Shown in pieces: positions 2,640 through 57,736 of a stretch of DNA of 64,000 nucleotides. The translations under genes were made by a program, and so were the position numbers. Source of the DNA: Arctopsyche grandis (lineage: Eukaryota > Arthropoda > Insecta > Trichoptera > Hydropsychidae); assembly GCF_051622035.1 (NCBI RefSeq), contig NC_135365.1:27218001-27282000 (forward strand). Direction: 5' to 3'. The notes beneath the pieces were generated by a model, which worked only from the letters and a program-made list of their open reading frames with translations, ran no database searches and was not told where the DNA came from. Numbering within the stretch: position 1 is the stretch's first letter; every line of letters begins with the position of its first letter.

Positions 2640-15732
<13,093 letters not shown>

Positions 15733-29629: not shown

Positions 29630-29691
29630 ATGGTGACGGAAGACATCAATATTGGCCCAAATAAATCGACTAAGGAAGTCACTTCAAATAG
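29630..29691 (+). CDS. Proposed exon 1 of the STAND nuclease gene
   Basis: ATG followed by 20 codons (starting MVTEDINIGP) and a consensus donor AATAG/GTATGT. It ends in phase 2, which fits the exon proposed at 33537. Independent support comes from a degenerate copy of the same exon at 63019, with the same upstream motif TTTAAATTCGTCGTTTTG and downstream sequence GGTGTTGTGAAAAATTCGG. The nearly 3.85-kb intron is filled with repeats. Confidence 0.55.
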
Positions 29692-29899
29692 GTATGTATT
29701 TACTATCACTGATTAGAAATAAACGATACATTTGCATGGTGTTGTGAAAAATTCGGATGTGACTAACACATGACTTTATTAATTTATTTGAGGGATTAAA
29801 GAAGTATAAAATACGCAATTCGTTAATGAAGAGCATTTCGAAGTTTGAGCGAAAATGTAGAAAAATTCATACAATACAAAAGTTCTACTCTCGGTTGTC

Positions 29900-30560
29900 G
29901 GAAATATTGTTTTAAAAATAATTACTACTTCCGGCTTACGAATTATTACTAACCAAAACTTTATCTAATCTACATAAGTTAGTATATAAAGAATACAAAT
30001 ATAAATTTTCAGCTCGATACGTTCAGTAGTGTGGAAAAAATAATGTAGAAGTAGGGAATGCAATACCGATAGTACCGATACCGGTAGTAACGGGATCGGA
30101 CCGAAGATCTACCTTTGGTATTACCGGTTTCACAAAAAAATACCGGTAGTATCAATTTTTTAAAAATTCGTTCATTTTATTTGTTGAAAACGATATCTTT
30201 ATGGCGAAACACTGTGTAAATTTGTGTTGTTATCAACTTGGGATTTCCATGTGAAATATTTGCGGTTATAAATATGTACATCCGGTTTACGAATTAGGAA
30301 TTTACGAATAACCAAAACCATATCTACTGTATGTACATATGTTTGAACACAGATAATACAAATATAAATTTTCAGCTTGATGCCTTCAGTGGTGTTGAAA
30401 AAATCGTGTGGTCAAAATATTTTTGACTTTTCCAAAAAGAAAAAAATCACACTTCCGGTTTTTTAAACTTAATGATTTATTTTTATTTTGATCACATTGA
30501 TACACGGATTATAATGGAATTTTCTTGTGAAGTGCATACATAATATATGTACAGACAGAC
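29900..30560 (+). repeat. Repeated intronic segments related to 62640-63640
   Basis: Two local copies (about 29910-30050 and 30270-30420) share CTTCCGGTTTACGAATT, AAAACCTTATCTA, ACAAATATAAATTTTCAGC and GTTCAGTGGTGTGGAAAAAAT. Two further copies lie at 62690-62830 and 63355-63500. The following segment with TTGATACACGGATTATAATGG also has a partner at 63560. They mark either a segmental duplication of the STAND-gene 5' region or a repeat family associated with it. Near 30065-30145 there is a degenerate ACCGGTAGTA tract. Confidence 0.7.
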
Positions 30561-30646
30561 ATATATAAAGGGAAGAAAAATTGAAAGTAAACTGCCACTT
30601 CTTTTTATTACTTTATCTATGTACGTAGTGACAATAGGGGTTTGAT

Positions 30647-31022
30647 GCATCCGCTCTAAAATCGCCAGATTAACAGAACGGCAGCTTTAAACGCAATTCT
30701 CATTTTCTCGAATGACAGATTGCACATCAGATGACGAGTAACCTTTCGATGTGCACAGATGCAATTATTAAAATTGAGTTGGATCTTTCTGGCGAGTTTA
30801 ATAAGGCAATATTCGTAACTTATCGAATCTTGCCTTATTAAACTCGCCTGAAAGATCCAACTCAATTTTAATAATTACCATTTTGATAATTGCATCTGTG
30901 CACATCGAAAGGTTACCCGTCATCTGATGTGCAATCTATCATTCGAGAAGATGAGAATTGCATTTAAAGCAGCCGTCCGTTAATCTGTCGTTCAATTTGT
31001 CTGGCGATTTTAGAGCGGATGC
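30647..31022. repeat. Long near-perfect inverted repeat (foldback) in STAND-gene intron
   Basis: The sequence from GCATCCGCTCTAAAATCGCC at 30647 folds onto its complement ending at 31022. The arms are about 180-190 bp, with a centre near 30830 and few mismatches. One arm has a small extra insertion (ACCATTTTGATAAT). If transcribed with the intron, it would make a long hairpin RNA. Confidence 0.9.
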
Positions 31023-31621
31023 ACCGCATCCTAACAATAGACGAAGTTTTGTGATCATGCGGAAATTCGAACTCAGAATCGATTACTGGTCACGTTAGTC
31101 CTATCGAATATGAAACTTAGTATCGGTTATTGAAACTGTTATCGAATTTAAAATTTGTCTTTTTTTATTTGCATGTCAATACTATTTTTAAAAATGCGCG
31201 CGATTTCGGTAGCATATGTAAATATGTATGCCTACACGTGCGACCTCCAAAACAAATGCACTCTGCAAGTGCAACCTCACCCAAATTCAATATGGGGAAT
31301 TCCAGCTGTGCGATAACGTGCTGTGACCTTCAGTTTGTTTTCCCCTTATCTGATCGATAAGATCTAGTCGGAATTGCAAAATAAATACTAAAAATAACTA
31401 CAATTCTACGAAACATTAGAATCCTCTGTGCTTAGGGTTGTCAGATTTCATGCCGGGACACCCCACCAAAAAAAAAAAAATCAGTTCTTTGACTTTTCTA
31501 TGGGTTTTTGATCTCTTTTTCCTATTATGCTGTACATTAACATTATAATAATATAATACTATGATTACTAACCAAATTAAATTAAAATTGTAAAATAGAA
31601 AATGATCAGTAGATCAGTAGC

Positions 31622-31626
<5 letters not shown>

Positions 31627-31709
<83 letters not shown>

Positions 31710-31710
31710 A
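31627..31710. repeat. (TA)n microsatellite
   Basis: Uninterrupted TA dinucleotides within the STAND-gene intron, flanked by AT-rich DNA. Confidence 0.95.
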
Positions 31711-32025
31711 TGTATTGAGAACATAATTTCGTAATAATAAAAAGCATTTATAAAGTCGTAAGATCAATTTCTCGATCAAATAAGGTCATATATGAATCTA
31801 TAAATAATACATATTTGGATATTAAGTTAATACTCGAAATTTTAAATACCCGGATCCCGCAGGTTTATTTATGTATTTATTTATTAAATAGCAAATTTCT
31901 AGTGAATTATTTAAAATTAACAATTTCAAACTTAAACTAACAACTATAATATAACATAGTTAACACAATTAACAAACATAGCATTTTATCAAACTTACAT
32001 ATATAATTACGTCATCTTCCACGGA

Positions 32026-33036
32026 GGTATCCATTAACCGTGTCACGACATAAGGTCCAAAGCTATAAGATCCAACGACAAGGGCACCACGAAAGAAGAT
32101 CCACCCGTTAGAATGCCCACCTGCTAAGTGATCCAGACAATTAAAAGCCCGGATGATAAAACCGGGCTTGCGAACCTTGGTCTAGAATCCGTTCATACGT
32201 AAGATTTTACTCTTTTTAAGAAATAATTTTTGCGGAACTCAGTTGAGAAACTCTGAATATGTAGGATTTGAAAACATAATTTTTGGGGAAAAATCGAAAA
32301 CCAAAGAATCTCCCATTTTTTATCAAATGCAAAGTTTCATAATGACGATTTGCGAACCTTAGTTCAGAAGCCCTGCATACGTAATAGTTTGGATTGCTAA
32401 AAAAAACTATTTGAAAAAAAAATTGCTACCCGGTTTAGAAACCCTGCTTAAAAATAAATGTTCGCGGTCTTAGTTGAGAAACCCTGCGTAATATTTCAAG
32501 GCACAAAGAGTATCAAATAAATTTATTCGCATTTATGAAATTATCATGTAGATATGGCCGACAATTTCAATACAGTAATTATTTTCGAAAACGCATTTAA
32601 TATTTATTGGAAAAATTGATTTTGCGCTGAATTGTCGTTGCGCTGAATAGATTGGCAGCACCTGACTCGATGTCAGGTGCTGCAATGATTTAATCTAACA
32701 TTATTATTTTATTCGGAATTTAATTAAAAAAATTGAAACCCGCCGAGTATTCAATCTAGTATCGAGTCAAATTGACTCGATATCTGATTTATGTAGATAT
32801 GGAGCGTTTTATTAAACATTATTACTTTATCTATGTTTTATATTTTGTTTTCGGACTTTTTGTGGCTGGACCTTTAACAAGGTGGACGATTTTCGGTTTT
32901 TACGTTTTATAATCTGGGCTTTTTATTGTCTGGATCACTTAACAGGTGGGCATTCTAACGGGTGGATCTTCTTTCGTGGTGCCCTTGTCTTTGGATCTTA
33001 TAGCATTGGACCTTATGTCGTGGAACCTCCATTAAC
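32026..33036. mobile_element. Non-autonomous element with about 130-bp inverted ends
   Basis: The segment 32026-32163 (CCATTAACCG, GACATAAGGTCC, AAGGGCACCACGAAAG, GCCCACCTG) recurs as reverse complement at about 32912-33033 (AGGTGGGC, CTTTCGTGGTGCCCTT, GGACCTTATGTCG). The interior of about 750 bp is AT-rich and non-coding, with repeated CCGG and GTTTAGAAACCCTG-type motifs. It is a foldback or long-TIR DNA transposon with no transposase. Confidence 0.75.
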
Positions 33037-33041
33037 ACCCC

Positions 33042-33400
33042 TCAAGAAAGCACCAATGTTACCTCTAAAGCACCTCTAATGCTCTCGGGAAGGGCATTAT
33101 ATATTTGAACACCTCTGTGGAAAACACCTGCAGTTTTAGCTTTCTTAACTCTACCTATAATTAATTTATTCCTATTTCTAATTTTATAATTATGTATATC
33201 TCTTTTCCTAACTATATGATTATTAAAATACTTGGGTAATAGATTCTTATCTAGCTTATACATATATAAATTTTAAAGTTTATTTCTAATATCCAACCAT
33301 TTCAATTCATCTAACATACTTACGTTTCCTCACATTCAAAATTGCACGCATTGCTCTATTCTGCACTTTCTGCAGTTTATCAATACACAATTTGAAGCCC
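33042..33400 (-). pseudogene. LINE reverse-transcriptase C-terminal remnant
   Basis: Minus-strand reading gives KLQKVQNRAMRAIL followed, after a frame change, by RKRDIHNYKIRNRNK and a GVQIYNALPESI motif. This is the usual C-terminal end of CR1/jockey-like non-LTR ORF2 proteins. It is broken and 5'-truncated, and is a repeat remnant within the STAND-gene intron. Confidence 0.7.
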
Positions 33401-33536
33401 GGATCCCTAATCCGGGTTTTAAGTCACTCGACCCAGCCAGGTCGAGTCCGAGTCGAATCGAGTCCAGAAACCCCAGATATACATATATAATTGAATGCAG
33501 ATATCGTATATTATTAAATATATGTATATTTTTCAG

Positions 33537-33574
33537 AATCGCCAACAATGCAGCACATAAACACGTAGCTACTA
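33537..33574 (+). CDS. Proposed exon 2 of the STAND nuclease gene
   Basis: A 38-base mini-exon. The acceptor is strong (TATATTTTTCAG at 33525-33536). It takes phase 2 from exon 1 and leaves phase 1 at the donor ACTA/GTTAGT (33575), which matches the next acceptor TTTTTTAAG at 33649-33657. The intervening intron would be 83 bases. An alternative is direct joining of exon 1 to an acceptor at 33678-33679, which is also in phase but has a poor pyrimidine tract. Confidence 0.45.
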
Positions 33575-33657
33575 GTTAGTATACGATTTTTTTTCTTAAA
33601 ATACTTAATGTATTGTAATCATTATGTAATATTCATAATATGTATATATTTTTTAAG

Positions 33658-34622
33658 ATATACAAGATAAACCAAATAGCAATCCCACTCAATTTGGTCG
33701 AGATTATGAAGGATACTTAGCTATGCTGTTCATATTGAGAGGTGCCATCAACAAGTATAGATTCAAAGTGGGCGTCGAAATAGAGCAAGCCCACAAGTTT
33801 GACGACTTGATCTTCATCTACAACAGGGCTGGCAAAAATGCCGGCAGATGCTTGCAGGCTAAACATACTACCAGCAATAAAAAGAAGATTGACTCTATGA
33901 ACCTGTTGACGATTGGGCAGAGTGATTTTAGCATCGTGAAATATTTTTTTGCTTTCAAAGATATGATGAGGGAGGATTATTTCCATGGAATCATTCAGGA
34001 GGATCTCATCGTTTATACAAATTTTGAGCTAGACGTCGATAGCAAAATAGGACCCAAAATGAAGCGGTGGCAAGAATTCGGATCGATGAAAGATGATAAA
34101 ATTAATAAACTCACCCAATTGTTGGAACCCATCAATAGTCCAGACGATATTCTAGATTTGACTAAGGAGGATTCTAAACGATACAGATTCAAAGATGAAT
34201 TAGTTGACATCTTGGAGTCCAAAGTCAATGAATATAGCATCGTTAGATTGGCACAAACGTTTAAAGATTGGTTAATGGGTAAAAAGAAGCTACAAGAGGT
34301 GGAGCACACCATTAGACCTTATTGGAAGTTTTTGACCGAAGAAATTCTGGATATTGAAAATGGACGGCTGCGAGAAAGTTTTCTAAAAGAACAAAAGAAG
34401 TTCAGGTCGAAGGAAGCTCAGATATTTCACGAAATATTAAAAGAGGAAATCAAAAGAAAAAATACACAAAATAAAAAGAAAATTGAAAAATATCAAGATG
34501 AAATATTGTCAATTGAGAGTTTGAGCGAGAGGGTGGGAACGATAGGCGAATATCCGTCGTGGAAAGTTGACTTAGAAGTGAAATTCGATAACATGGTCAA
34601 AGTAGAAGATACACCAACCTGA
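33658..34622 (+). CDS. STAND protein, N-terminal PD-(D/E)xK nuclease-like part
   Basis: The open frame runs from the proposed acceptor to a TGA at 34620-34622. Near its start lie YEGYLAM (E about residue 51 of the joined protein), KFDDLIFIYN (D82/D83) and LQAKH (Q100, K102). This E...DD...QxK arrangement is the PD-(D/E)xK fold signature in the form used by the Cap4/DUF4297 dsDNA endonuclease family of bacterial CBASS and related STAND effectors. The rest is charged and helical, with a coiled-coil-like Lys/Glu stretch near 34390-34500. The next ORF continues one frame over (+1) with no gap, so together they appear to be one gene broken by a single-base frame change. Function is inferred: nucleic-acid cleavage on activation by the C-terminal sensor. 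The nuclease call rests on motif reading only. Confidence 0.75.
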
Positions 34623-37506
34623 TCATAACGAATTGAAAGAAATTATTAAAGCCGACATTTTGGAGTACCAGCGTCAAAAATACGGTGGTGACGACTTTTA
34701 CACCGAAGAAGACATCGACAGATATGTGGAGGAAATATTTCAACACTTTCACAGCACGGTGTTTAAATGGAAGGATGCCGAGGTGGACAGGAAGAAGAGG
34801 AACAACAGAGATACGCAGGAAACGTACATGACTGAAGAAGATGGCGAAAAATTCTTGCAGAATCAATGGAAGGAGGTGAAATTCGACGTTCAAAAGCCAG
34901 TCACGTCTTTCATGGGAAGGGACGACGAATTGAAAGCTTTGCACAAGAGCTTCCAAAGAGGACCCACCGTGAAATCACAGACGAGAGTGATCTGTGGACT
35001 TCCCGGAATGGGAAAAACGGAATTAATTCGAAGCTACATCCAAAGATACAGTCGCCGATATGAAAACAAAGTTATGTGGATCGACGGTAAATCACGCGAG
35101 TCCATAGAGGACTCATTTCGGAGGCTGTACGAAACGTTGGAAATATCGACAGAAGAATCGGAAGACATCGACCAGATAGTTGCAGAAGTTTACCGAGAAT
35201 TTCAATCGAAAAAGTGCCTAATAGCGTTCGACGACGTTTCCAACCCAGAAGTAATCGATTCCTTTATGCCAAAACAGACTAGCAATGGAAATTTGCCTTT
35301 TATACTCATTACGTCTGCTAACTCAAAATGGGAACGAGACCGGAAAAGGAATCTGAAAGTTTTGACTGAACAGAATGCAACGAAGCTGATCGAAAATCAA
35401 GTGAACATCAGAGAATCAACTGAAATAAGGGAGATTGAACAACTAGTCAGGTATTTAGAATGCTTTCCGTTGGCCGTACAGCAGGCGGCTACTTATATCG
35501 CGAAAGAATCTGAGAAGGATTCTACATTTAGAATCACCGACTGCGTTAAAAATTTCTCCAAACACGTTGCAAAAATCCTCAAGCTTAAATTGCCGAAAGA
35601 CATTACTTCTTACGAGAAAACTACGTACGCCAATTTTCAAAACATCATCGATTCGATAGCAGATTTGGGAACTGTCGGAGAAAATACCTTAGATGTACTA
35701 AACGTCATATCTTTTTTGTGTCCCAATAACATCGATGTTCAATGGTTCTCGCAATACTCCACTTTAGATTTGGGTAGCATTTTCCAGACACTAAAGGAAT
35801 ATTCGATTGTTAATATCGAATACGGTACAGCGAGCATTCATAATCTCGTGCAGATGTTTACTAGACTTAGACTGAAGCAACTGAAAATGGATAGATCGGT
35901 CGTTTACAAAACGTTCTTTTTTTTTAATAAATTTTTTCCAAAGGAATTTTTAAAGAATAAATATTCCGTGAACGATTATGCAAATATGCGCAAATTAGCA
36001 CCACATTTGGAAGTATTTATGTCACACGCAGATGAAATTTGTAAATCGTGGCCTAAAACAGAAAGATTAAACTATTTGGAAAAATTGTTAACTTTGTCAG
36101 GAATTTGCTATTTCATATTACGTGATCTGCATAAACATAAGCAAGCTTTAAATCGATCTCAGGATATATGTAAGGAAAAAAATGGGTCAATGAGTTTTCA
36201 AAGCATAATCATCGATCTAAATTCGATTTATGCAGATATGCAAACGGGTAAATACGCCGAAGCTAAAAGGAGATACGATAAAATACTACCAACTTATTTG
36301 AAATTTTTTGGAGAAACAAGCAAATTGGCTGCTAATCTTTATACAAACGCGTCTCTTGCAGAATCATTTATGGGTAATTTATGGGTAGCCAAATCCTATT
36401 GTGAAAAGGCGTTAAAGATATATTCCATTAAAAATTATGAACCATATATCGAATGTTATATAAACTTGGGATTTGCGGAATTGGGTTTGGGTAATTACGC
36501 CATTGCAAAATCCATTTTCAAAAAGGCAAAAGCAATGTCAGTGTCACATTATGGAGAAAAGCACGTCACAGTTGCCAGAATACTTGTAGGGTTGGGTAGA
36601 ATAGAATTAAATTTGAGTAATTACGTTAGCGCAAAATCTATGTTTGAAAATGGCTTAGCGTCTCTTTTGTATAACTACGGAGAAGATCATATATTGGTTG
36701 CCGAAGCTCGTTTTGACTTGGCTATTTCAGAATACGAATTGGGTAATTTCGCAAAAGCAAAGTTTCTATGCAAAAAGGCCCTAGCGAAATATTTGTCGTA
36801 TTATGGAGAGAATTACCGAAAAAATGCGTATATATATAAAAAATTGGGAAATATTGAGTTGGAATTAAAAAATTATGCCACAGCAAAAACTCTATTTAAA
36901 AAAGCAATAATAGTTTATTTGGATAATTTTGGGGGAAATTTTATTGAACTCGCCAATATTTATTGTATCTTAGGTGGTTTGGAATTTAATTTGCAGCAGA
37001 ATTACACAGCTGCAAAATTCCAGTTCGAAAACGCTGTTGCGGTGTATTTGACGAATGGCATGGGAACACATAAAAATATTGGCACTACCTATCGTTATTT
37101 AGGACATTTGGAATTTAAATTGGGTAATCATACTTCAGCAAAAAATAACTACAAAAAAGCTTTGGTGGTTTATTTGAAATACTATGGAGAAAATCACATA
37201 GAAGTTGCCGAAATTCGTAACGATTTGGGTGATATAGAAATTAGATTGGGCAATTACGGTACTGCAAAAAATTATTTAGAAAAATCTTTGAACACGTATT
37301 TAACATATTACAGAGAGGCTAAGAATCACGTAAAAATTGGTTACCTTTATTCAAATTTGGGTATTGTAGAAATTAAATTGCGCAATAACTTTGAAGCATA
37401 TCGTCTGCTTAAAAGAGCATTAGCTATTTTTTTGAAAAACTTTGGAATAGAACACGAAAAAGTTGCAAGCGTTTATTATTTATTGTTCCAAATAACTGAT
37501 ATATAA
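34606..37506 (+). CDS. STAND protein, NB-ARC NTPase and TPR part
   Basis: This frame opens at 34606 (after a TAG at 34603) and runs about 960 codons to TAA at 37504. Numbering from 34633: Walker A GLPGMGKT at 122-129, Walker B LIAFDD at 196-201, an ILITSAN sensor strand at about 224-230, and the FPLAVQQAA motif (GxPLA class) at about 278-286. This set defines an NB-ARC/AP-ATPase. From about residue 530 to the end there are some nine or ten repeats of about 42 residues, with the pattern YYGE-H-VA...LG-IELxLGNY-xAK--FxKAL, as in kinesin-light-chain-type TPRs. In such proteins the TPRs sense a ligand and the NTPase oligomerises to activate the N-terminal effector. The upstream frame supplies a nuclease-like effector. 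No start codon is needed here if the locus is one gene; the first ATG in this frame is well inside. AATAAA lies at about 37777. Confidence 0.9.
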   Translation, partial: KIHQPDHNELKEIIKADILEYQRQKYGGDDFYTEEDIDRYVEEIFQHFHSTVFKWKDAEVDRKKRNNRDTQETYMTEEDGEKFLQNQWKEVKFDVQKPVTSFMGRDDELKALHKSFQRGPTVKSQTRVICGLPGMGKTELIRSYIQRYSRRYENKVMWIDGKSRESIEDSFRRLYETLEISTEESEDIDQIVAEVYREFQSKKCLIAFDDVSNPEVIDSFMPKQTSNGNLPFILITSANSKWERDRKRNLKVLTEQNATKLIENQVNIRESTEIREIEQLVRYLECFPLAVQQAATYIAKESEKDSTFRITDCVKNFSKHVAKILKLKLPKDITSYEKTTYANFQNIIDSIADLGTVGENTLDVLNVISFLCPNNIDVQWFSQYSTLDLGSIFQTLKEYSIVNIEYGTASIHNLVQMFTRLRLKQLKMDRSVVYKTFFFFNKFFPKEFLKNKYSVNDYANMRKLAPHLEVFMSHADEICKSWPKTERLNYLEKLLTLSGICYFILRDLHKHKQALNRSQDICKEKNGSMSFQSIIIDLNSIYADMQTGKYAEAKRRYDKILPTYLKFFGETSKLAANLYTNASLAESFMGNLWVAKSYCEKALKIYSIKNYEPYIECYINLGFAELGLGNYAIAKSIFKKAKAMSVSHYGEKHVTVARILVGLGRIELNLSNYVSAKSMFENGLASLLYNYGEDHILVAEARFDLAISEYELGNFAKAKFLCKKALAKYLSYYGENYRKNAYIYKKLGNIELELKNYATAKTLFKKAIIVYLDNFGGNFIELANIYCILGGLEFNLQQNYTAAKFQFENAVAVYLTNGMGTHKNIGTTYRYLGHLEFKLGNHTSAKNNYKKALVVYLKYYGENHIEVAEIRNDLGDIEIRLGNYGTAKNYLEKSLNTYLTYYREAKNHVKIGYLYSNLGIVEIKLRNNFEAYRLLKRALAIFLKNFGIEHEKVASVYYLLFQITDI

Positions 37507-41275: not shown

Positions 41276-43488
41276 ATTTTTTTTATTTTATTTAAATAGG
41301 CACACATACAGAATAAAATATAAAAAGAAAGTTGTATAATGAGACAAAAAATAATAATAAACATAAATAAAAATATAATATTCCATTTACAGTGAGCACC
41401 ACATGGTATTGTGTGTATGATTTGTCAAAAATATGTACAAAAACTCAATCCATAGATGTCTCAATGGATTAATTGTGTAATTAATTAATGAATTAATTGT
41501 CATTTCGTGTTCTTTAGCTTCTGGAAATACAGTGCCTTTTTTGTAATAAAATGTCCAAGAAGGCGCATTGGGATCTTCCTGTCAAGCCTTCATGGTATAT
41601 ATCTATTTGAAATAAAAAATAAAATATTGTAGCGTCGATGTGTAGAGGGGTTTCCGAGATCAAGTGAAATTTAAGGTGAATTGTTTATGTGAGATGTTTA
41701 TGAAAAGACTGTATATGTTTTGACTACATACATATTTTATTCAAATAACACAATACAGTTTGTAAAAACCTCAAACACTTTGAGTCGACGTTTTGACGAC
41801 GACTGTAAACTGTGATCTTATGTACTTTTCCAAAAATGTAATTTAAAAAAACCGAAAAAGTTTTTGCCATATTTCGGAAAACCAGAGGATTACCTGTATG
41901 TGATTGTTGATGATCTAATTTTAGGTCAATCTCGAAAATTTATTTAAATTGGGCATGTTCTGTTTTAACTTTCAATATTTTATTTTAATTTTCATATATT
42001 GATTATAATTTTATTTTGATATTTGAATTTACTTTTAATATAATAATAATAGTTTTAATTTTGATATTTAATTTCAATTTTTAAATTTAATTTTTATTTC
42101 GATGTCTTGTACGCTACTGGTTTTATCCTGCTGGTTAAAACGTTGGCCCAAAATCGTCGTTGGTTTGGTCCGTACGCAGCATAAGATAAATGGGTAATAA
42201 ATATAAAAAAAAGGTATTTGGAATAGGATAATGGATTATTGAAGCGGCACTATCGGCAATTTTATGGGCACTATTTTCAAACGTGTCTATTACGATGATT
42301 TTTGACGAAATTCGCGAATGACACAACAACGGTGACTTTGATACTTGATCATTGAATAAGACTGCTTTTTCGGATGGGTGGATTGAATTCGACGCGCTTT
42401 TCCTTACATGTATGCGGCCTGGACGATGGGGGATGCGGGGGTGGGAGGGGGTTGACACGTGACGTCACAAAGGGTCGGTTTTGGTACACCAATCATCATC
42501 TATCACCGAGCGTTGTGTGGCCGGGGTTTAAGGGGTTAAGCGTGGAACGCCTCAAACGTCCGACTTATAAATCACCCCGGAAGCCGATCGAATCGATCAA
42601 TTACAGTTTCCGGCTTACCGGAGTATCATTTCGAATGCCGTTATTTCGTTTTCCCGGATGGGAGAGGAGGGGAAAAAGTGTGGGGGGGGGGTGGCCGTCT
42701 TCGGCCCTGGAAAAGCGTTATTTATCACCGGAAGTAGAGCAGAGCATCATCATAATGGGTGAAAATTCAATTATATCATAGCACAAGGTTGTTGTATGTG
42801 TAATGTTGAAGTAGAGATGTCAAGTGAAAGTGAACCCCCCCCCCATATGTACGTAATTTTCCATTTTGATTCGTATTTAAATCACACGAATGTGACGTCA
42901 CCAGTGCTCGATGCAAGTAGATGACTGTCAAGCTCATCGGCTTGGTTTGAAATTGTATAAATCGCATATGTATGTACATATGTATGTATGTAGTATGTCC
43001 ATTTATTTATTTATTACCATTTTGTCTGATTTTAAACTTTGATTTACTCATAATTTTTTTATATTAATTCAAAAACAAAAAAAAGGATGTCGTAAAAATT
43101 TTAGGGACCTAATTTTAAGACGCATGGTTTTGTGAGGGATTAGGATCGTCATTCATGAGAGATAATTGAAACAATACTTAGTTTGTTTTTCGAACTTTCA
43201 TACATCCACAAATTTTCTATCGGGTTCATATCGGGGCTTTTCCAGGCCATGGTAACGTCGTAACTTCCATTTTCCGTATGTTTTTTTTTATAACATATAA
43301 ATTTTATTAATAACATATGTTACATACATAATCATAAAATAAAATATTTAATTACCTTCACCGCAGTATGAAACATGTTCTTCCATCGATGGGATATAAC
43401 TTTCCTCCAATATTGATTTCTTCATTTCTCCATTCACAAAAACATTATTAAAACAAAGTTCTCCAACAGAAAAAGTTTTTATTTCAAC

Positions 43489-43807
<319 letters not shown>

Positions 43808-44538
43808 TCCGAGTCCGACTGTCACCGTGTCCGCGCGCGTTTCTCTCGCTCTCACTTTGCATTTCGAAATACTCGGACTCCCCACGCATCTATCACTACA
43901 AAACCTAACCATCTACTCACTTATTTTACTAATTGCATCCTAGTATAATTTAAGTGTAAAAATAAACAGATGATCGGCTGTTAACAGCGTTTTTTAATAT
44001 CAGTGATTTCGTAAAATTTTGTGTTAATTTTGTGTCAGTTACAAAAGCGTATACGAACGAGATACATCTCCCTACCTGAATACAAAAAAAATAAGGGTCC
44101 TTGTTCGTCAGTCAAAATTCGGTCCCACAGAAGCAATATATCTTCCACATAATTGCTTTCAGACAAAAATTTTTAACGAACTTTACTTAATAGAATAATA
44201 GCAAACAGAAACGGTGTTTCCCAATTGTCTAATAGTTCGTTTTCATATTTAATTTATATTAAAGTAATTCGTGTAATTTTATATTCTTTACTAAATTTAT
44301 TATTAAAATATTAAATTGCAAACCGCACTCACACATATATAAATCCGTTGTCTCCAAAGAGGCGTCTCACGATAAAGATCTGTAAAAAAAGTAGTATAAC
44401 AATTGCTAATCTATTATTATCATAACTAACTACTTTCACTTACAAAATAACCCTGTTATATGGCATGTAATAACTCATAAGGGATCCAAGTGATACCTAG
44501 GATGACTATCAGACAAAGCTGACCACAGAGAAGAGTCT

Positions 44539-47496
44539 ATGGCGGTAAGAACTCACTCCTTGAATGGAAATCTCTCTCAAGTACCGCCTTTTTCTCAAAA
44601 CATCTTGGATAAATGCGAGAAAAATAATATCCAAACCTCCAACAAGGTAAGAGTGACGATGGATGATAGCTTAGCTAATAGAAACCTGTATTTAGCCACG
44701 TACAATGTAAGAAAGTTATCGAGTGAAGGAAGTGTGCTTGCATTAGAGAATGAATTAGAAAGTATCAAATGGGATTTAGTAGGACTTAGCGAAGTAAGAC
44801 GAAAACAGGAAAACCAAATAATCCTAAAAAGTGGTAACTGTCTCTACTGGAGAGGGCTACCAAATGGTAGAATAGGAGGAGTAGGGTTTCTTATCAATAA
44901 GAGAATAGAAAGAAATATTATAGAAATAAGCGACATATCGGAACGTATATGCTATGTAGTATTAAGAATCTCGAGCAGGTACACTTGTCAAATCTTCCAA
45001 GTGTACGCCCCCACATCTAGCCACCCAGACGAGGAAATAGAAGACTTCTACGAAAAACTACAGGGCGCATACGATAATAGCCGCCACCACTTTAAAATAA
45101 TCATGGGCGACTTTAACGCAAAAATAGGACAAAAGGCAAACACAGAAAGAGCAGTAGGCAATTTTGGTACCGGCCAAAGAAACGAAAGAGGCGATCGCCT
45201 CATAGAATTCGCAGAACACAACAGGCTCTTTATCACTAATTCATTTTTCAGGAAAAACGCAAACAATAAGTGGACTTGGGAGAGTCCTAAAGGAGACAGA
45301 AACGAAATAGATTTCATCCTAACAAATACCCTGCACTCCGTTAAAGACGTTAGTGTTTTAAGTAAAGTAGATATAGGTAGCGATCACAGATTAGTCCGGG
45401 CCAAGATGGCCATTAATATAAATTGCGAACGTAGGAAACTAATAAAAGGATGCAGTAGCTCTCCAGACTTCGCTCAACTAAGGACTAGGAAATAGGAATT
45501 CGAACTCGAACTTGGAAATAGATACGAGAAATTAAACCCAGAAGCAGACATCGAGGAATTGAACACTGTAATTAATTCGGTTCTAACCTCAACAGGTAAG
45601 AAATTAGGTGGATTCAGGAAACAGATTAAATTAAGCAAAATTTCAGCGGAAACAAAAAACCTAATTAAGCATAAAAGGAATTTAGATAGGGATAATAATA
45701 AGCAAGAATACAATCTAGTAAATAAGGAAATTAAAAAGAGAATAGTCAGGGATGTCAGGGATTTTAACAGCAAGTTAATAGAAAGTACCATTAAGAATAA
45801 CCGTAGCCTGAAAAAGTACAAACAGGATATTTTCTTAGGCAAAAACCAAATGATCGCAATCAGATCAGAGAGCGGAGTAATAATTAGGAATAGAGAAGAA
45901 ATCATAGACAGAGTTTACACGTTCTATGCAAAACTATACGAGAACGACAACGGCCAATTCCCCGCTCTGGAACCGACACACGGCCAAAGGGTTCCTGCAG
46001 TATTGCCTAGCGAAGTAGAGGCCGCGCTAAAAACTGCAAAGAACGGTAAAACCCCAGGGGAAGATAATATTCCCATTGACTTACTAAAATGTGGCGGCTC
46101 CCCCCTAAATAATATCTTAGCTAGGCTTTTCAGCAAATGCATCCAGAACCAAGCTATACCAGAAGGATGGAATAACGCAACTATCATCTTAATACACAAA
46201 AAAGGTGATAAAAGCGATATCAAGAACTACCGACCCATTAGTTTACTTTCAGCGGTCTACAAGCTCTTCACGAAGGTTATTACAGAAAGGCTGAAGAATA
46301 TCCTCGACGAGAACCAACCTATAGAACAGGCAGGATTTAGGGCAAATTTCAGTACAATGGACCACCTCCAAGTAGTTGGCGAACTAATCGAACGCGCCAA
46401 CGAATATCAACGGCCATTGTGCCTAGGTTTCGTAGATTATGAGAAAGCCTTCGATACAGTGAGCCACAATGCAGTACTTAACGCTCTACAAACACAGGGA
46501 GTACCGGAACCCTATGTGGGGCTGTTAGCTGCAATATATAAGAATGCCACAGCTTCGGTTAAAATTTTTTCAGGTACAGATAGATTTAGCATAAGAAAAG
46601 GAGTAAGACAAGGAGATACAATCTCGCCCAAGTTATTCAATGCGGTGCTTGAGGGAGTTTTCAGGAACTTGGAATGGGACAAAGCCGGAGTAAGCATCAA
46701 CGGTCGCTTCTTGAGTCACCTTCGGTTCGCAGACGATATAGTTTTAATAGCTCGTGATTCAGCTGACCTACTTAACAGGCTAACACAGCTGGACAGGGAA
46801 AGTAGAAAAGTAGGATTAAAAATTAACGTAGATAAGACCAAACTAATGTTCAATAGGTATTGCATGCCTGATAGCATCCCATTAGGTGATAAACCAGTAG
46901 AAGTAGTAAATAATTATTTATATTTAGGTCAAATAATTGACATGTCTGGTAATAAAGATGAAGAGATAAAGAGACGTATGAAATTAGGATGGAGTGCATT
47001 TGGACGGATGAATGCTATTTTTAAATCAAAAATGCCACTCTGCCTGAAGAAAAAGATCTTTGATCAATGCGTTTTGCCAGTGATGACGTATGGATGTGAA
47101 ACTTGGACACTGAACACCAAGATGCTACATAAAATCTAATGCACTCAAAGAAGTATGGAGCGCTGTATGCTTGGCATAACGAGAAAAGACAGAAAGCGGA
47201 ACACGTGGGTGAGAAGTATGACAAGAGTAGTGGACATAGTGGATAGAGTGAAGAGATTGAAATGGCAATGGGCGGGTCACGTAGCTAGGAGGATGGACGA
47301 AAGGTGGACAAAAGAATTGCTTGAATGGTACCCGAGAGAATGCAAAAGGGTAAAAGGAAGACCGCAAGGAAGATGGGTGAACGAAATTAGGAAAATGTGC
47401 GGGGTGAGATGGATGAGTGTTGCGCAAAACAGAGACGGGTGGAAGCGTGTTGGAGAGGCCTTCATCCAGCAGTGGATGGCGAGTGGCTGTAAATGA
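44539..47496 (+). mobile_element. RTE-clade non-LTR retrotransposon with two in-frame stops
   Basis: A single reading frame runs from 44539 to a TGA at 47494, interrupted only by TAG at 45493 and TAA at 47137. The N-terminal third is an APE-type endonuclease (ATYNVRKL, GLSEVRRK, VYAPTS, IMGDFNAKIG, GSDHRLV). The middle is a reverse transcriptase (NYRPISLLSAVYKL, GFRANFSTMDH, VDYEKAFDTV, GVRQGDTISPKLF, RFADDIVLI). The end is the usual RTE tail (MTYGCETWTL, LKWQWAGHVARR, GRPQGRW). The 3' end is an ATGATGATG run merging into (TA)n, typical of RTE. The 5' end is not delimited but may lie near 44330. Having only two nonsense changes in about 3 kb implies a fairly recent copy. It probably cannot make a full protein. 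Confidence 0.93.
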
Positions 47497-48970: not shown

Positions 48971-51290
48971 TTACATTTTGAAAAAATCATCCGAGTTATC
49001 CTTCCCATTAATTTGAACTTGTTGATCTGAATTCATGTTATTCGGAAACATAATACTGGGAAACTTGTCCGAGTTAGCATCCTTTCCTTTAATTTGAACT
49101 CTTCGATCTGAATTCCTTCTATTCGGGAACATAATACTGGGAAACTTGTCCATGAAACTAGATCTAGAAGATGCTTGGCCACTCATCTGTACGACTTCAT
49201 TATCGAACACCCGTCGCTGTTGTTGACATTGAATTTTTCTATCCTTTCTGTAACCTTCCTTCTCTTCCGTTTCCTCGAGTGTTTTCAAATCGTTTGTCTC
49301 CTCTTTGTGACATTTTTGTCCGCTTGTCGTTTCAAAGAATTTCCTAAAACTATTACGCTTGTTGTTGCTCGGATTCAATGGAGCAGCGCTTGTTGGGTCG
49401 TTACCGTCCTCGAATTGATCTGATTTGAAAGTTTTTGAACAATTTAGAAACCTATAACATGCCATACGGTATTTATAAATCACGAAAATGACTATTACCA
49501 AAATGACTATTATCAAAACAAGCCCTATTGCGGAGCATACATAAACGAGTGTAGAACTTAAACCACTTCGCTTTACTTTGAACGAAACATCTTTGAGATC
49601 GTTTAAATCTGAACTAATCAATGTAGCCGGTTCTCCAGCATTTTTAATTTCGGATAGAATATCAGACGTACAGCAAGAGTCGTTCCATATATTCAAGTAA
49701 ACTTTCGGTAAAGGTATTGTAATATCGTCTATTTTGCTCGAGGTGAGGTGGAAGGAATCAACGTTCGCTGAACATCCATCAGGAATCGTCATTATTCCGG
49801 ATCCTATGACTGTTTCTTCTTGGGCGGAGTCCTTGTCATGACAATTCATGGTCAATCTGTTGATGGCCGTTTGAACGTAGATCCAACGGTCGTTCGAAAT
49901 CTTGTGCCAAATGTTGATATTTCCATGGACTGCGCGCACGTCACATTCTGCAGGCATTGTTGGAGTGTGTTCACTCAATAGTTTCGTCTCGCAAATTGGA
50001 TATTTAACGGTGGATACTATTCTATCAGATCGGCACAAATATCTTGCATTGGACAGTTTTTTGCAATTGTCGATCGATTTGAAGAGAGCGTAGGAGAGCT
50101 TGTCGAATGTCGATATGGCCAGGTAAGAGTGTTTCTGATCTGGTTGTATGAACAGGAACATGTCGGGTTTCGAAGGATCTTGAGCGATTGGCATGGGGAA
50201 GTATTGGTAAAGGGTGAACTCGTATTTGAGTACCAGCGGAATTCGAAGTGCAAATATTACAATACCATCTCGAACGAAACTGATAACACTAGAGATATCT
50301 AGTAGAGATTGTATATGATTAATAGTAAGGGGGTAAGGCAACTCGCTGTTTTGGTTCACATTGTGTATGTTTTTCACCAACTCATCGTATATTCTCTGAT
50401 GTGATATGACAGCTGTGTGGAGTACGTCTTTTTTGGCCAAACTTATGGCCGTCAGCAAATCTTTAAAGGCAGTTGAAATGCTACGAAGTGAGTTTTGAAT
50501 ACTACTCATATACGTTGTCATTTTGGTTCTAATATCCAAAATGTCGATTGATTTTTGGTGCAAATTCAAATTTAAACCATGGCGCGTCAATATATCTTTG
50601 TAATCGTTTAATATTACCGATACTTCTTCTAGCTTGGTATCCGTTTTATCCAACCGCTGTTCGTGTTCTTGTATTTTAAGTCTATCTTGGTGCGATAATT
50701 TCTTCTCTTCCATTATGACGTCCAACATGTTGCGCATATTTGCATGAACTATGATTTGATTAGTTTGTATTTCCTGTACGTCTTCTTTGATGTCATTCAT
50801 TGACGATTTAATGCCGATTACTTCATTTTGGAATGAAATGGACAAAACATTTAAATTGGAATTTAGACTAGAAACGGCATCCTGAAGTTTTTCAATGTCT
50901 TTTTCGCTAGTGTCTCCAGATATAGCATTCCATATGTTACCAAAAATATTTGCTCGTTTTGTTCTTCTATTCTGCGAAATAGACAAACTCAAACTATTAA
51001 GATCCGAATCACAGGATGTCATCAATGAATCCAGACTCTCTCTAGATGCAGTAAAAGAGCTTCCCTTGTCGTAAATTTCAATTTTCAGGCTTTGCACTTT
51101 AGCATCCTTTATTATTTTCTTTAAATGTTCCAGTTTGGTGTTCGCCGAGGTAATATTGATAAATGTAACAACATCCAGGGGATGCGTGGAGACTTTGATC
51201 TGTCCCAGAGGATCAAAATACAATCCGGATCCAGTCTTTGCGATTTGGTCGTATTGGTTTTCAGCGAACGCCGAAATCGCCAAGAAACAC
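48971..51290 (-). CDS. Envelope (F-type) derived gene 1, candidate domesticated env
   Basis: The open frame of at least 770 codons begins at a minus-strand acceptor (TTTTTAG, exon edge 51290); the signal-peptide start must lie in an upstream exon I could not place. Order: hydrophobic FLAISAFA signal remnant, ectodomain, a furin-like RRTKR (about 106-110 of the open frame), coiled-coil region, a Cys-rich block with CETKLL...CDVR...W, one membrane segment (about 575-602), and an unusually long cytoplasmic tail of about 168 residues with a 27-residue tandem repeat. The family is that of insect errantivirus/baculovirus F proteins. No LTR, gag or pol flanks it. The segment after the furin site is short and weakly hydrophobic, so fusion ability may be lost. 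It could be a host gene like fly Iris; that role is inference. Confidence 0.75.
48985..49165 (-). repeat. 81-bp coding tandem repeat in env-derived gene 1
   Basis: Two copies of a unit encoding DKFPSIMFPN followed by a Asn/Asp/Gln-rich stretch and QIxGKD lie 27 codons apart at the extreme C-terminus. It keeps frame and has diverged at several positions. Confidence 0.85.
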
Positions 51291-52631
51291 CTAAAAATTA
51301 AAAATTATTTATAATTTTTTTTTGTAAAAAAAAGTATTGAAGACAGTAAAATCAAATTTTTCAACCCACGTGTAAAACGATTGTAAAAATGAGTTAGATT
51401 AGATAGATCTTATATTTCAAAATAAGATAGAATACCATGGAAAAAATGATTGACCAATTTTTGAGTACAAAAAAATTAGTCCAAAAGGCGTTAATTGATC
51501 CAAATATCGATTAAGAATTTGAATGAAACCGCTGAAATATTAATTGCAGTATTGAAAATATTATAATAACCGTCGAACCATTGAGCATAGAAGATTCCAT
51601 CTAACTGCAGAAAAAAAAGGTCGAACACTCCTAACTTCATAGTCATTTTGGAAAATTGAATTTTTAGAGTACGACCCGTTCACAAGGAGACCAATTCTTC
51701 TTCTTCTGGGTACGAAAATCCACAATATTTAATTTTCTATATTTAAGGAAGGAAAATAATGTGCAATCTTTCATAATGTTACAGCGGAAATAATTCCCTG
51801 TTTTGGTTAAGTGAAAGAAACGTTATTTTTCTCTATTATTCGATTTTTACAAAGAGTTATTTTTTTTAGAAATCCTGTCAGTGGATGTCAAAGAATTTTC
51901 TCTTTTTATTTGAACGCTTGTGTTAACGTTATTTAAGTAATTATTAAAGTAAACACATTTTGGTTTATTTAAATTTTATATATTTATTAGTGTATTCGTG
52001 TGTAAAGTATAAAGCCAAATAAAATATGTGTATATATAACAAGTCTGCACATTTTAAAATTATGGATTAAAAATTATAATTTAAACATGTTTAAAGTATT
52101 AAAGATTTTCTCGAGAATTTTTTATAGATTCATCTTATTTTTTATAGATAAATTAGAAACACCATGTAACATTTATGACGTGTCAACAACAATATAAATC
52201 GGTATACTTATAAATCTTTAGAAATTAAGAATAATATATATTTTTGAAACAGTGGCAATTTTTAAACATTTGAATAAATTATTGAATTAAGAAGTTAAAT
52301 GAATAGTTTCAGAAATACAAAAGAATATATATGACTCTTTTTAATTTGATTGTTGTTATATTAAAATTTCATGTGTACATACATATATATATGTATGTAC
52401 ATATGTACCATTCACATTAGTTTAATATATATTAATTTGTAAATGCATGGGCCACAAAGTTAAACTAGTTGTTGAAATAAATATAAAAATATGAAAATAC
52501 ATGAGCCACAAATTTTAACAACTACCAACGGAAAATAATCATAATAATCGAGGTTACAAATTTTGCATAATAAAAGAAATCATCCCCGCATCACTATTTT
52601 ATATCATCCTTCTTTATCATCATCATAATCA
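51291..52631. other. Spacer between the two env-derived genes
   Basis: Very AT-rich. It must contain the first exon and promoter of gene 1 (minus strand), but no ATG with a phase-matched donor is convincing. Nothing else is recognised apart from a CATACATATATATATGTATG palindrome near 52379. Confidence 0.5.
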
Positions 52632-54587
52632 TCATCCTTTAATTTTATACATCACTATTTTATATGTTGCGAGGATGATCAAAGCTACCAGCGCAATGGT
52701 GAGAATAAAATATAGAATGATTGGGATAAAACTTTGGTTGCTTTCTTGCATTTCTTGTATCGGCATTCGATAAGAATGCTTTTTGACGTAGGAGAGATCA
52801 CCGTGCATTAAATCTAAAAGTGGTAACTTTTCTTTAATGCTTTCCAATTTATCAACTGTACAGCAGTCATCTTTGTATAGTTGGAAGAAGATTTTCGGGA
52901 TACTTAAAGTCTTCACTTTATTAAAGTTGATTTTTAGCTGGTTTGTACCCACAAACATGCTGCAATTCTCCATCAAGTTGAGAAGTCCCGATCCAGAGAT
53001 TATTTGATCAAAAGAATCAGACTCGCCGCAATGTATCGACAATCTCTTGGGTTTGCTTTGAATGAAGGTCCATCTGTTGCTGTGCAATTGGTGCCAAAAG
53101 TCAATATCTCCGTGCAGAATCCTCACGTCACAGTCTTCGGGAAGTTTTGGCACGTCCTCGGTTAGAAGTTGAGTCTCGCATCGGGGTCTCTGTGCGGTGC
53201 GATAAATTTCCTTAGGAGGGCACATCTTGGTGTTTTCGTCAAGGATCTTACAATGGCCGAAAGAGTCCATGTAGGTGTATGCCAACTTGTCGTCGGACAG
53301 GGCAAGGTAGGGCGAAAGAGTGGAAATCGACTGGACGAACAAGAAAAAGTCTCCAATCTGGACAGGATGCGGCACGCAATTGTACAAAGTGTACTGAATT
53401 TTGTTCACTAGAGGCACTTTCAGCACATACACCAGTTTGAAATCTTGTATTTCGTTCGACACATCGGACATTCTTATGATACGATCTATGTTATCTATTG
53501 TAGGGTGCCAGGGTAATTCGTTGTCTCGTAGATAAGGCACCACATTCTCAGTCAGCCCTTCATGCAACTGCGTACGACTCAATATTGCAATGTCGAGTAC
53601 ATTGGCATTGCTCAAGGTGATCTCTCGAAGTACTTGAGCTAGTTTATTTTGAAAATTTTCAAACCGGGTGGTCAAACTCGCCAACCACGATAGCATATTG
53701 GATTTGATTTTTAAATTTTCAATTTCACTCCGGTGGTTCTTCAATATAAAATCGTGTTTCGTTAAAATTGCATTGTATTCTTCTATAACGCTATCCGTTT
53801 CGTTCATTTTGAAATCCAAGTTTTTTAAGACGTCCCCGTGTTGTAGAAGTATTCTGCGATTCTCTTCTGAAAACGATGCCTCTTGAGCTAGCATATAGTT
53901 GAAATCGTTAAAATTATTCAGAATATTAGCCTCTGTCCTATAAACTTCGTCTAAAGATGCTTCCAGGGTATTAAGATGAGAATTCATAGTTATAATTTTC
54001 TGATTGAAGTCAAAATAGTATTTTTGTTGATTTTGTTCCATTTTTTTTATTGCCGTATTGTACTTTTTATAATTTATGGACGGTTTTCTTGATAATAAAG
54101 GCATCAATAAACTAATAATTCCAACGGCTGCAGTTGCTATCGTGATCCCCGCAACGATCGTTGTTATCACTGCCTTTTTACGTCTTATAGAGTTAGACGA
54201 TCCTGAATTCGATAATGATTTGATCTTGGCAAAACTTTCGTTCATATTCGTCGCCAATAACGTTATTATGTCCATGCAAGTGTTGTTCTCATCTATTAGA
54301 ATGATCGTGCTACACATTGCCTGTGATTTTATCAGAGCGTTGGCATTTGCCTTCAATTCATCGATCATGAAGTGCAAGTCAACAAACGTCACGATTTCTA
54401 AATGATCATCTAAAAATTTTATCTTGCTAACTGGATCGAAAAACATTCCAGGTCCATCTCTAGACACACGTACGACGAATTCATCTCCGAATGCAGGCGC
54501 TATTGTCATTAGCATTCTGCAAATCAAAAAAATGAATTCCGTTAAGCTGAGCACGGTAAGAGGTTTGTCGACATAAAAATCTCTCAT
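52632..54587 (-). CDS. Envelope (F-type) derived gene 2, candidate domesticated env
   Basis: Intact 651-codon minus-strand ORF. Its N-terminus has a hydrophobic signal-like segment (about residues 11-33). Either the ATG at 54587 is used, or a splice acceptor (TTTGATTTGCAG) just before an internal ATG near residue 25, at the same relative place as the acceptor in gene 1. A GPGMFFDP motif, a basic RRKK site (about 135-138) followed by a strongly hydrophobic fusion-peptide-like run (139-163), coiled coils, a CETQLL...CDVR...W Cys-rich region and one C-terminal membrane segment (about 620-643) with a very short tail complete it. It is clearly paralogous to gene 1 but diverged. No LTRs or other retroviral genes adjoin it in the same orientation. 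Either a captured env under host use or an old proviral remnant; the uninterrupted frame favours the former. Confidence 0.78.
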   Translation of the reverse strand: MRDFYVDKPLTVLSLTEFIFLICRMLMTIAPAFGDEFVVRVSRDGPGMFFDPVSKIKFLDDHLEIVTFVDLHFMIDELKANANALIKSQAMCSTIILIDENNTCMDIITLLATNMNESFAKIKSLSNSGSSNSIRRKKAVITTIVAGITIATAAVGIISLLMPLLSRKPSINYKKYNTAIKKMEQNQQKYYFDFNQKIITMNSHLNTLEASLDEVYRTEANILNNFNDFNYMLAQEASFSEENRRILLQHGDVLKNLDFKMNETDSVIEEYNAILTKHDFILKNHRSEIENLKIKSNMLSWLASLTTRFENFQNKLAQVLREITLSNANVLDIAILSRTQLHEGLTENVVPYLRDNELPWHPTIDNIDRIIRMSDVSNEIQDFKLVYVLKVPLVNKIQYTLYNCVPHPVQIGDFFLFVQSISTLSPYLALSDDKLAYTYMDSFGHCKILDENTKMCPPKEIYRTAQRPRCETQLLTEDVPKLPEDCDVRILHGDIDFWHQLHSNRWTFIQSKPKRLSIHCGESDSFDQIISGSGLLNLMENCSMFVGTNQLKINFNKVKTLSIPKIFFQLYKDDCCTVDKLESIKEKLPLLDLMHGDLSYVKKHSYRMPIQEMQESNQSFIPIILYFILTIALVALIILATYKIVMYKIKG

Positions 54588-54671
54588 ACTGTATCGTAGC
54601 TACATATATATACTAAAATAGACCCTACAAGAGATATATACACACATAGGTATATAAATATTCATATATAC

Positions 54672-55724: not shown

Positions 55725-56301
55725 ATGGAAATTGTATTAGTGTAAGTCTTCTGATACTTCCCACATTACACAAACACACAATATAAACTTAGTTGCTGAT
55801 ATTTAAATTCTAAGAACGCCTCCTAAAAAGGATAGTGAAGGTGAAGTTGTGATTCAGGAAGTAATAGACTTCAACACACTCACTAAATTCATAAAAAGGT
55901 ATGATGGTAGTTCAATACCATTGTACGAATTCATCGATGACCGTGAGAATGCTCTCATATTAGCATCAGAGTCCCAACGTAAAATATTATTAAATTACAT
56001 TGTATCTCAAATTACGGGATCTACAAGAATAATTATATCGAATATAAATACTAGAGATTTCAATAGTATAAAAGAAGCGCTTGTTAGAAATTATAGTCCC
56101 CATAAAAATTACTCTACATTATTATTGGAACTTCAACAATTGAAGCAACGACATGACGAAGACGTAACTAAATTTATGAATCGTATTCAAACCGCGACAA
56201 ATTCCCTTATTAAAAGCATACAAAATTGTAACATCAAGTCCAAAGCAGACGAATTTAACGGACAAATAAAATTAATTGACGAACTTAGTCTTCAAGGATG
56301 A
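55725..56301 (+). CDS. gag: gag, N-terminal part, with probable 73-bp intron
   Basis: ATG at 55725 opens five codons plus two bases, then GTAAGT (55742). The acceptor TCTAAG ends at 55814, and the frame resumes in phase at 55815 and runs to TGA at 56299. The product shows the helical capsid character of gypsy-type Gag. Without splicing the first frame stops after six codons. The stop at 56299 overlaps the next gag frame by four bases (ATGA), and the following frame carries the expected continuation, so gag is interrupted by a single frame change. I describe the break only. Confidence 0.7.
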
Positions 56302-56849
56302 TTCACGGAAATAAATGTCAACAAACGCGGATAGTATTTTATTCTACTCACCCAAAAACTCTCTTAGATGCGTATAAAACAGCTCTAGAAATAGAGACTG
56401 ATACTGCAAGAAACAAAAATTGCAACATTTGTGGTCGAGAAGGACATACAAGCAATGCATGCTTCAAGAATAAAGACAGTAGAAATCAACAAGTCCACTC
56501 TGTTGAGACGCGCCCCAAGACATGGGAAAATAATAGAAATAATGATGGACATAAAAATTTTAGCAACAATAATAATAATTATAAAAATGGATATAATAAT
56601 AAAAACAATGCGGGTTTCAAACCAAATCATCAGTACAATAACACTGATCAAAATAAAAACGGTTATAATAAAATCGATAAAAATAACAGGAGTTATGACC
56701 AACCAAAGTCATGTACTTATTGTAATTTAAAAGGACACACATTTGAGAATTGCTACAAACGGCAAAATAAAGAACAAAGAGATAAAAATAAGGTCAATCA
56801 TTTAAACTTAATTCCGTCTGTCGAAGCCCGAGTCAATCGAACAGACTAG
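56298..56849 (+). CDS. gag: gag, C-terminal part with two CCHC knuckles
   Basis: The frame contains two zinc knuckles, CNICGREGHTSNAC and CTYCNLKGHTFENC, separated by a long Asn/Lys-rich spacer. It follows the N-terminal gag frame in the -1 direction with no slippery site at the junction, so a mutation is likelier than recoding there. Its own 3' end overlaps the protease frame. Confidence 0.85.
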   Translation: MIHGNKCQQTRIVFYSTHPKTLLDAYKTALEIETDTARNKNCNICGREGHTSNACFKNKDSRNQQVHSVETRPKTWENNRNNDGHKNFSNNNNNYKNGYNNKNNAGFKPNHQYNNTDQNKNGYNKIDKNNRSYDQPKSCTYCNLKGHTFENCYKRQNKEQRDKNKVNHLNLIPSVEARVNRTD

Positions 56850-57712: not shown

Positions 57713-57736
57713 TGTAATGACGAAATTGAAAAGTCA

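Follow-up and report, generated by a model that had tools for sequence, protein, structure and literature searches.

A locus on the plus strand of a caddisfly chromosome, at positions 29630 to 37506 of a 64,000-nucleotide stretch of Arctopsyche grandis DNA (contig NC_135365.1, positions 27,218,001 to 27,282,000; this whole stretch is called the window below), was analyzed. With moderate confidence, we read it as a damaged member of a symbiont-derived caddisfly family of sensor-gated DNA nucleases, expanded in the manner of a nucleotide-binding leucine-rich-repeat receptor (NLR) family. The gene-like unit consists of two proposed small exons, an open reading frame (ORF) ending at 34619 and a further ORF at 34606-37503. 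The first ORF encodes a predicted nuclease, and the second encodes an NB-ARC NTPase followed by tetratricopeptide repeats (TPRs).

The nuclease ORF (33657-34619) contains, in order, GRDYEGYLAMLFIL, GVEIEQAHKFDDLIF and RCLQAKH. The E...DD...QxK signature described in the initial annotation is thus present as far as its motifs are concerned. The catalytic E, D, D and K were kept in 10/10 caddisfly relatives and in 105/105 outside relatives aligned, and the Q of QxK was kept in 10/10 and 104/105, respectively. The invariant acid is the E of the first strand (GVE). If the acid of the first helix (DYEG) was the E intended, that element of the signature is not the conserved one; among the 105 outside relatives the position holds Q in 103 and a gap in 2, whereas 8 of the 10 caddisfly relatives have E.

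The predicted fold of the nuclease domain (helix, three strands, helices, strand) is a restriction-endonuclease-like core, modeled with a predicted local distance difference test score (pLDDT) of 85. This core was what the initial annotation had expected of the N terminus, though all Z values in the structure comparison (VIA) were below 8 and Foldseek returned nothing at E 0.001. We take most of the leading VIA matches, Upx excepted, to be restriction-endonuclease-like folds. The fold searches used the model of the nuclease domain and not that of the whole 321-residue ORF, which was poor (pLDDT 59.5). Among 35 family members, nine matched the PADLOC model SAVED_PDDEXK (PDLC02005; best E, 1.1e-8) and five matched the PADLOC model LmuA (PDLC03848; best E, 2.4e-6). 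The window's own nuclease did not match the PADLOC Cap4-type models, and Pfam gave nothing better than E 0.021 for the 35 nuclease members. The predicted core, the conserved residues and the PADLOC matches of the relatives support the proposed Cap4-like character of the domain, that is, a putative PD-(D/E)xK nuclease of the Cap4/DUF4297 type.

A helix pattern of the FAVNQPN type follows the nuclease in 97 of 115 nuclease proteins, including those of caddisflies and Wolbachia, indicating that, as judged from its conservation, this helix is not a mere spacer. It is also readable in two Rickettsiales loci (L002 and L003).

For the second ORF, all NB-ARC motifs named in the initial annotation were placed: GLPGMGKT at 34996-35019, LIAFDD at 35218-35235, ILITSAN at 35302-35322 and FPLA at 35464-35475. 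The Pfam NB-ARC profile (PF00931) matched residues 126 to 300 with E 4.4e-9 and 36.4 bits, against a cut-off of 23.5. TPR_12 matched the same ORF with E 1.4e-49. A TPR spacer motif occurs nine times, and seven of its eight spacings (range, 39 to 43 residues) are 42 or 43, in agreement with the annotated array of about ten 42-residue TPRs. The NB-ARC part of the window is 42 to 58% identical to those of ten caddisfly relatives, 37% identical over 403 aligned positions to the protein P0023 of Wolbachia (the highest value among Wolbachia) and 31 to 34% identical to ant, bee and bug proteins.

Over 55 pairs of proteins, mean pairwise identity was 59% for the nuclease, 47% for the linker and 48% for the NB-ARC part. 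Matches to a crude 42-residue repeat motif ranged from 0 to 18 per protein among 12 A. grandis loci, where low counts may reflect missed repeats or short gene models. In one protein (P0007), neighboring repeats are identical. Conserved domains combined with variable repeats would fit a receptor whose sensor changes, but they do not amount to evidence of immunity.

Origin of the caddisfly family

The family comprises 12 annotated A. grandis loci, most of them with the full architecture, on 6 contigs of 29.5 to 42.7 Mb that were distinguished by their lengths. With the first 680 residues of the read-through of both halves as the query, 12 proteins were recovered at E 0.001: nine A. grandis loci (contigs of 30.7 to 42.7 Mb), the protein P0010, one Folsomia protein and one millipede protein. 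The Folsomia protein (P0013) showed kinship in the NTPase and TPRs and no nuclease match; the millipede protein showed kinship in the nuclease only, with NACHT and ankyrins in its Pfam list. Three further A. grandis loci came from a profile search; each carries the nuclease together with the whole NTPase or a part of it. Both family searches scored only the candidates sharing most words (7,988 and 7,992), and the first missed relatives found later, such as the Andrena protein P0073, so that a species without a match may still carry the family.

In Wolbachia, Mesenet, Rickettsiella and many insects, the nuclease of this family was found in front of either NB-ARC-TPR or NACHT-ankyrin, in most cases accompanied by the FAVNQPN helix. 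Both the nuclease and NB-ARC profiles matched 21 noncaddisfly proteins, one of which (P0030) has only the start of NB-ARC. Both halves of the window locus matched the same Wolbachia proteins, for example, P0023 and P0086. In two proteins, P0126 (Temnothorax americanus) and P0029, the OTU accession PF02338 occurs together with the nuclease and NB-ARC, a combination reminiscent of the modular proteins of symbionts.

In prokaryotes, a pattern scan of the collection found at least three loci, all in Rickettsiales, and an earlier scan with other short peptide patterns found no locus. Both scans used strict patterns, and the three loci are therefore a lower bound. One of them (L003, 821-5193; a Midichloriaceae metagenome-assembled genome) carries the nuclease with FAVNQPN and the P-loop half as two adjoining ORFs on one strand. 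The nuclease was not matched in phage and plasmid records, searched with the window ORF and with the domain of a Wolbachia relative, and no relative was found in viral contigs.

An NTPase tree was built from the 12 caddisfly relatives plus the window, four other insects and seven Wolbachia proteins. The caddisfly genes formed one clade with support of 100/100; its branch measured 1.03 changes per site in one tree and 0.94 in another. The four other insects (two ants, a bee and a bug) fell among Wolbachia. In tests with groups defined after an earlier tree had been seen, a single clade of all arthropods was rejected (P = 1.2e-8), as was a single group of the four noncaddisfly insects (P = 1.5e-52). 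The tree left out Folsomia P0013 (branch of 2.67 in the earlier tree), Callosobruchus P0052, P0128 (NTPase cut short) and, with the exception of P0010, all rows lacking an organism label. P0052, with a branch of 0.024 beside Wolbachia, is probably Wolbachia DNA in an insect record.

A quick nuclease tree of 122 rows also recovered the caddisfly clade (support, 100). The clade joined a group of six rows (Wolbachia of Tetranychus; Andrena; Halyomorpha; Temnothorax; and two without an organism label) with a Shimodaira-Hasegawa-like approximate likelihood ratio test value of 98. In this tree, P0010 was counted as caddisfly and P0052 was given no host label; 6 of the 111 profile-search proteins (four from insects) were beyond the reach of the caddisfly profile and were left out. 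The NB-ARC profile is present in 36 of the 122 rows, and this label needs 11 changes on the tree, so that the nuclease seems to have been swapped repeatedly between STAND partners.

From these sequence comparisons, the module is present in both arthropods and intracellular bacteria and has moved between them. Since the noncaddisfly insects are mixed with Wolbachia in the trees, transfer has recurred. The likeness to bacterial defense nucleases would favor the direction from bacteria to insects. The proposal of an old animal immune gene was not supported, and a symbiont-linked, laterally moved family with an expansion in caddisflies is the better reading. We suggest that a Rickettsiales endosymbiont protein entered the caddisfly lineage once and then multiplied and that other insects may have acquired their relatives separately.

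A second possibility, which we consider real but not probable, is that the genes are relics of modular symbiont effectors, or domesticated ones, which in insects, if active, would serve as antidotes to symbiont manipulation or selfish elements rather than as general immune receptors. Toxin-like modules do occur in the relatives, by Pfam accessions: latrotoxin C-terminal domains in five Wolbachia proteins (P0016, P0018, P0020, P0025 and P0110), OTU in another (P0101), and Ulp1 (P0015) or OTU (P0126) in ant proteins. Such modules are listed among the eukaryotic-association genes of phage WO in passages of PMC5062602, and the window copy is broken, as a relic might be. The precomputed domain lists of the 13 caddisfly-type proteins, however, hold no OTU, Ulp1 or latrotoxin accession, the nuclease and NTPase have been kept in 12 loci, and repeat numbers vary as they do in receptors.

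The reverse direction, in which Wolbachia and related bacteria took up an arthropod nuclease-STAND family on several occasions, appears doubtful. It would fit the diversity of the arthropods concerned (24 of 111 rows, from a millipede, ant, bee, sawflies, beetles, bugs and midge) and the narrow range of the bacteria, 15 of the 17 with names being Wolbachia, Mesenet or Rickettsiella. For the phage WO gene gwv_1093, passages of PMC5062602 judge transfer from arthropod to phage the more parsimonious and allow the reverse. In contrast, the nuclease models matched by the relatives are those of bacterial defense proteins, and the arthropods do not form one clade.

Frame break and layout of the locus

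The initial annotation had taken the locus for one intact gene. Its effector-NTPase-sensor order holds insofar as the domains follow one another in the window and are joined in one protein in ten close caddisfly relatives. In the window, however, the nuclease half and the NB-ARC-TPR half lie in different frames, so the locus does not encode one joined protein. The break falls within 34602-34620, where a bridging helix of the EEIxxFLxLFVFAVxQPN type, present in 10/10 closest relatives, is mostly missing. There is no further stop in either half. A small intron at this place was rejected because the junction holds no sequence for the missing helix.

As the two halves are otherwise open, the damage appears to be recent, unless it stems from the assembly. 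By its sequence, the window copy is unable to make the joined protein and probably represents a null allele or a young pseudogene. We regard it as unlikely that the gene is whole in the animal and was broken in assembly. The lesion is the only one in about 3.9 kb of coding frame, as an error might be, but it takes away some twelve residues of a conserved helix, which exceeds a slip of one or two bases, and the site is not a homopolymer.

The features of the locus are given in Table 1. The start of the gene at 29630 and the in-frame joining of the exons are plausible from splice signals only. No second copy of either half was found within the window by tblastn.

Table 1. Features proposed for the nuclease-NB-ARC-TPR locus of the window
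Feature	Position	Strand	Basis
Proposed coding exon 1 (MVTEDINIGPNKSTKEVTSN...)	29630-29691	+	ATG; GTATGT donor; in-frame join to next exons; N termini of relatives similar in style
Proposed coding exon 2	33537-33574	+	TTTTCAG acceptor; GTTAGT donor; frame kept
Proposed exon 3, nuclease ORF as far as the frame break	33658-34619	+	AG acceptor; 321-residue open frame from 33657; 39-58% identity to ten relatives
PD-(D/E)xK nuclease domain as modeled	33675-34052	+	pLDDT 85; E 33777-33779, DD 33801-33806, QxK 33855-33863
Lesion: conserved FLxxLVFAVxQPN helix mostly gone, frame broken	34602-34620	+	Comparison with ten closest relatives
Second ORF, NB-ARC and TPR half	34606-37503	+	Open frame, 966 residues
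NB-ARC NTPase and helical part after it	34903-35925	+	PF00931; Walker A 34996-35019, Walker B 35218-35235
TPR array, period 42 residues, about ten units	36223-37485	+	TPR_12; limits set by eye

The window is insect chromosome, with a BCAS3 gene (PF21034, E 3.1e-30) upstream of the locus and retroelement ORFs downstream. The proposed first intron holds two repeat elements. One, at 32044-33022, has 119-nucleotide inverted ends that are 95% complementary, with 741 nucleotides between them, and is probably a DNA transposon. The other, at 30646-31023, is a nested palindromic element with arms of 97, 53 and 42 nucleotides. At 44506-47136 (+), an ORF resembling by eye a long interspersed nuclear element endonuclease is followed by a reverse transcriptase ORF (PF00078, E 1.5e-34). 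Two long adjoining ORFs at 48971-51301 (-) and 52635-54599 (-) match the Baculovirus F protein (PF12259, E 8.8e-37 and 9e-30) and are perhaps domesticated envelope genes. Retroelement pieces lie at 55807-59041 (+): a gag-like ORF, a match to a retroviral protease (PF00077, E 1.4e-6) and a further ORF without a Pfam match, similar by eye to the upstream F-like proteins. Very long runs of TA dinucleotides, translated as IYIY, lie at 12299-13008 and 43348-43948.

Proposed function and comparison with known systems

A mechanism is proposed by analogy, in which the family may have an immune function. At rest, ADP-bound NB-ARC together with the linker would keep the nuclease domains apart. Once the TPR superhelix binds a ligand, ATP exchange and oligomerization may follow, and the clustered N-terminal nucleases would cut double-stranded DNA, resulting in cell death or destruction of the foreign DNA, as in Avs and Cap4. 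More broadly, and only tentatively, arthropods may on repeated occasions have acquired complete nuclease-STAND receptors from Rickettsiales endosymbionts. In caddisflies, one of these could have become a multigene NLR-like repertoire with fast-changing repeat sensors, bringing about cell death or DNA destruction when viruses, transposons or symbionts are sensed. A nonimmune STAND protein of transport or cilia that merely looks like an NLR is very improbable; nephrocystin-3 (TPR_NPHP3) and kinesin light chain appeared among the TPR matches, but such matches are confined to the TPRs, TPR_NPHP3 is below its cut-off (48 against 100 bits), and a nuclease with a conserved active site has no place in such proteins.

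Arthropods are not known to have canonical NLRs. If the proposal is true, it shows a route by which a bacterial-type nuclease receptor enters animal genomes via symbionts and grows into a receptor family. The 12 A. grandis paralogues, with defined active-site residues, switch motifs and a TPR sensor, make the question of an insect NLR equivalent directly testable. The work also marks out a module, the nuclease usually with its FAVNQPN helix, that is placed before NB-ARC-TPR and NACHT-ankyrin in Wolbachia and insects alike. In the open-licence literature, nothing was found that joins DUF4297 with Wolbachia or with insects. Titles and abstract starts gave no description of a nuclease-NB-ARC-TPR architecture, and caddisfly combined with NB-ARC yielded only plant work.

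Cap4 of the cyclic oligonucleotide-based antiphage signaling system (CBASS) ends in a SAVED sensor, in whose place NB-ARC and TPRs stand here. SAVED was not among the PADLOC matches of the window ORFs or in the 25 of 27 Pfam rows listed. One relative (P0003) gave a weak SAVED row (E 0.0096) with no stretch passing, which falls within its NB-ARC. CBASS proper was therefore rejected, NB-ARC and TPRs following the nuclease and no SAVED being seen. A canonical animal NLR, with NACHT and leucine-rich repeats, was also rejected, as neither occurs in the 25 of 27 Pfam rows listed.

Passages of PMC5062602 describe gwv_1093, a phage WO gene rich in repeats, and a WO NACHT protein with arthropod homologues, and name NB-ARC among the domains of the phage WO module; no mention of the present nuclease occurs in those passages. 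The likeness is that such repeat-rich or STAND-type genes are common to phage WO and arthropods (PMC5062602, in the same passages), the WO NACHT protein being compared by description only. Unlike these genes, the present nuclease was not found in phage records, and membership of the gwv_1093 family was rejected because gwv_1093 matches neither the nuclease nor the NB-ARC profile at E 10. PMC12445526 and PMC7750005 describe symbiont toxins built from modules such as nucleases, OTU, latrotoxin and ankyrins, as well as cif or cytoplasmic incompatibility-like genes in some arthropod genomes. CifB (CinB, CidB) was not among the five matches of a PDB profile search, and the fold comparison showed only a weak likeness; no search was aimed at the CifB lineage or cifA. 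CifB is not known to have NB-ARC-TPR.

With Avs (AVAST) systems, the ten close caddisfly relatives share the order of N-terminal effector, central STAND NTPase and C-terminal repeat sensor; in the window copy, the Avs-like order is present and the frame is broken. Unlike Avs, the family lies on an insect chromosome and its NTPase is NB-ARC by Pfam, and it is likened to Avs by architecture. Known proteins of Wolbachia and insects are similar in the domains themselves: P0023 (Wolbachia of Kerria lacca), P0086 (Wolbachia of Tetranychus) and P0073 (Andrena cerasifolii) have the same nuclease and the same NB-ARC family (32 to 37% identity). The Wolbachia and insect proteins add ankyrin repeats and, in some, toxin-like modules, accessions that are not found in the caddisfly clade. 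The Wolbachia and insect proteins share TPR accessions with the caddisfly genes, and most members carry the FAVNQPN-type linker.

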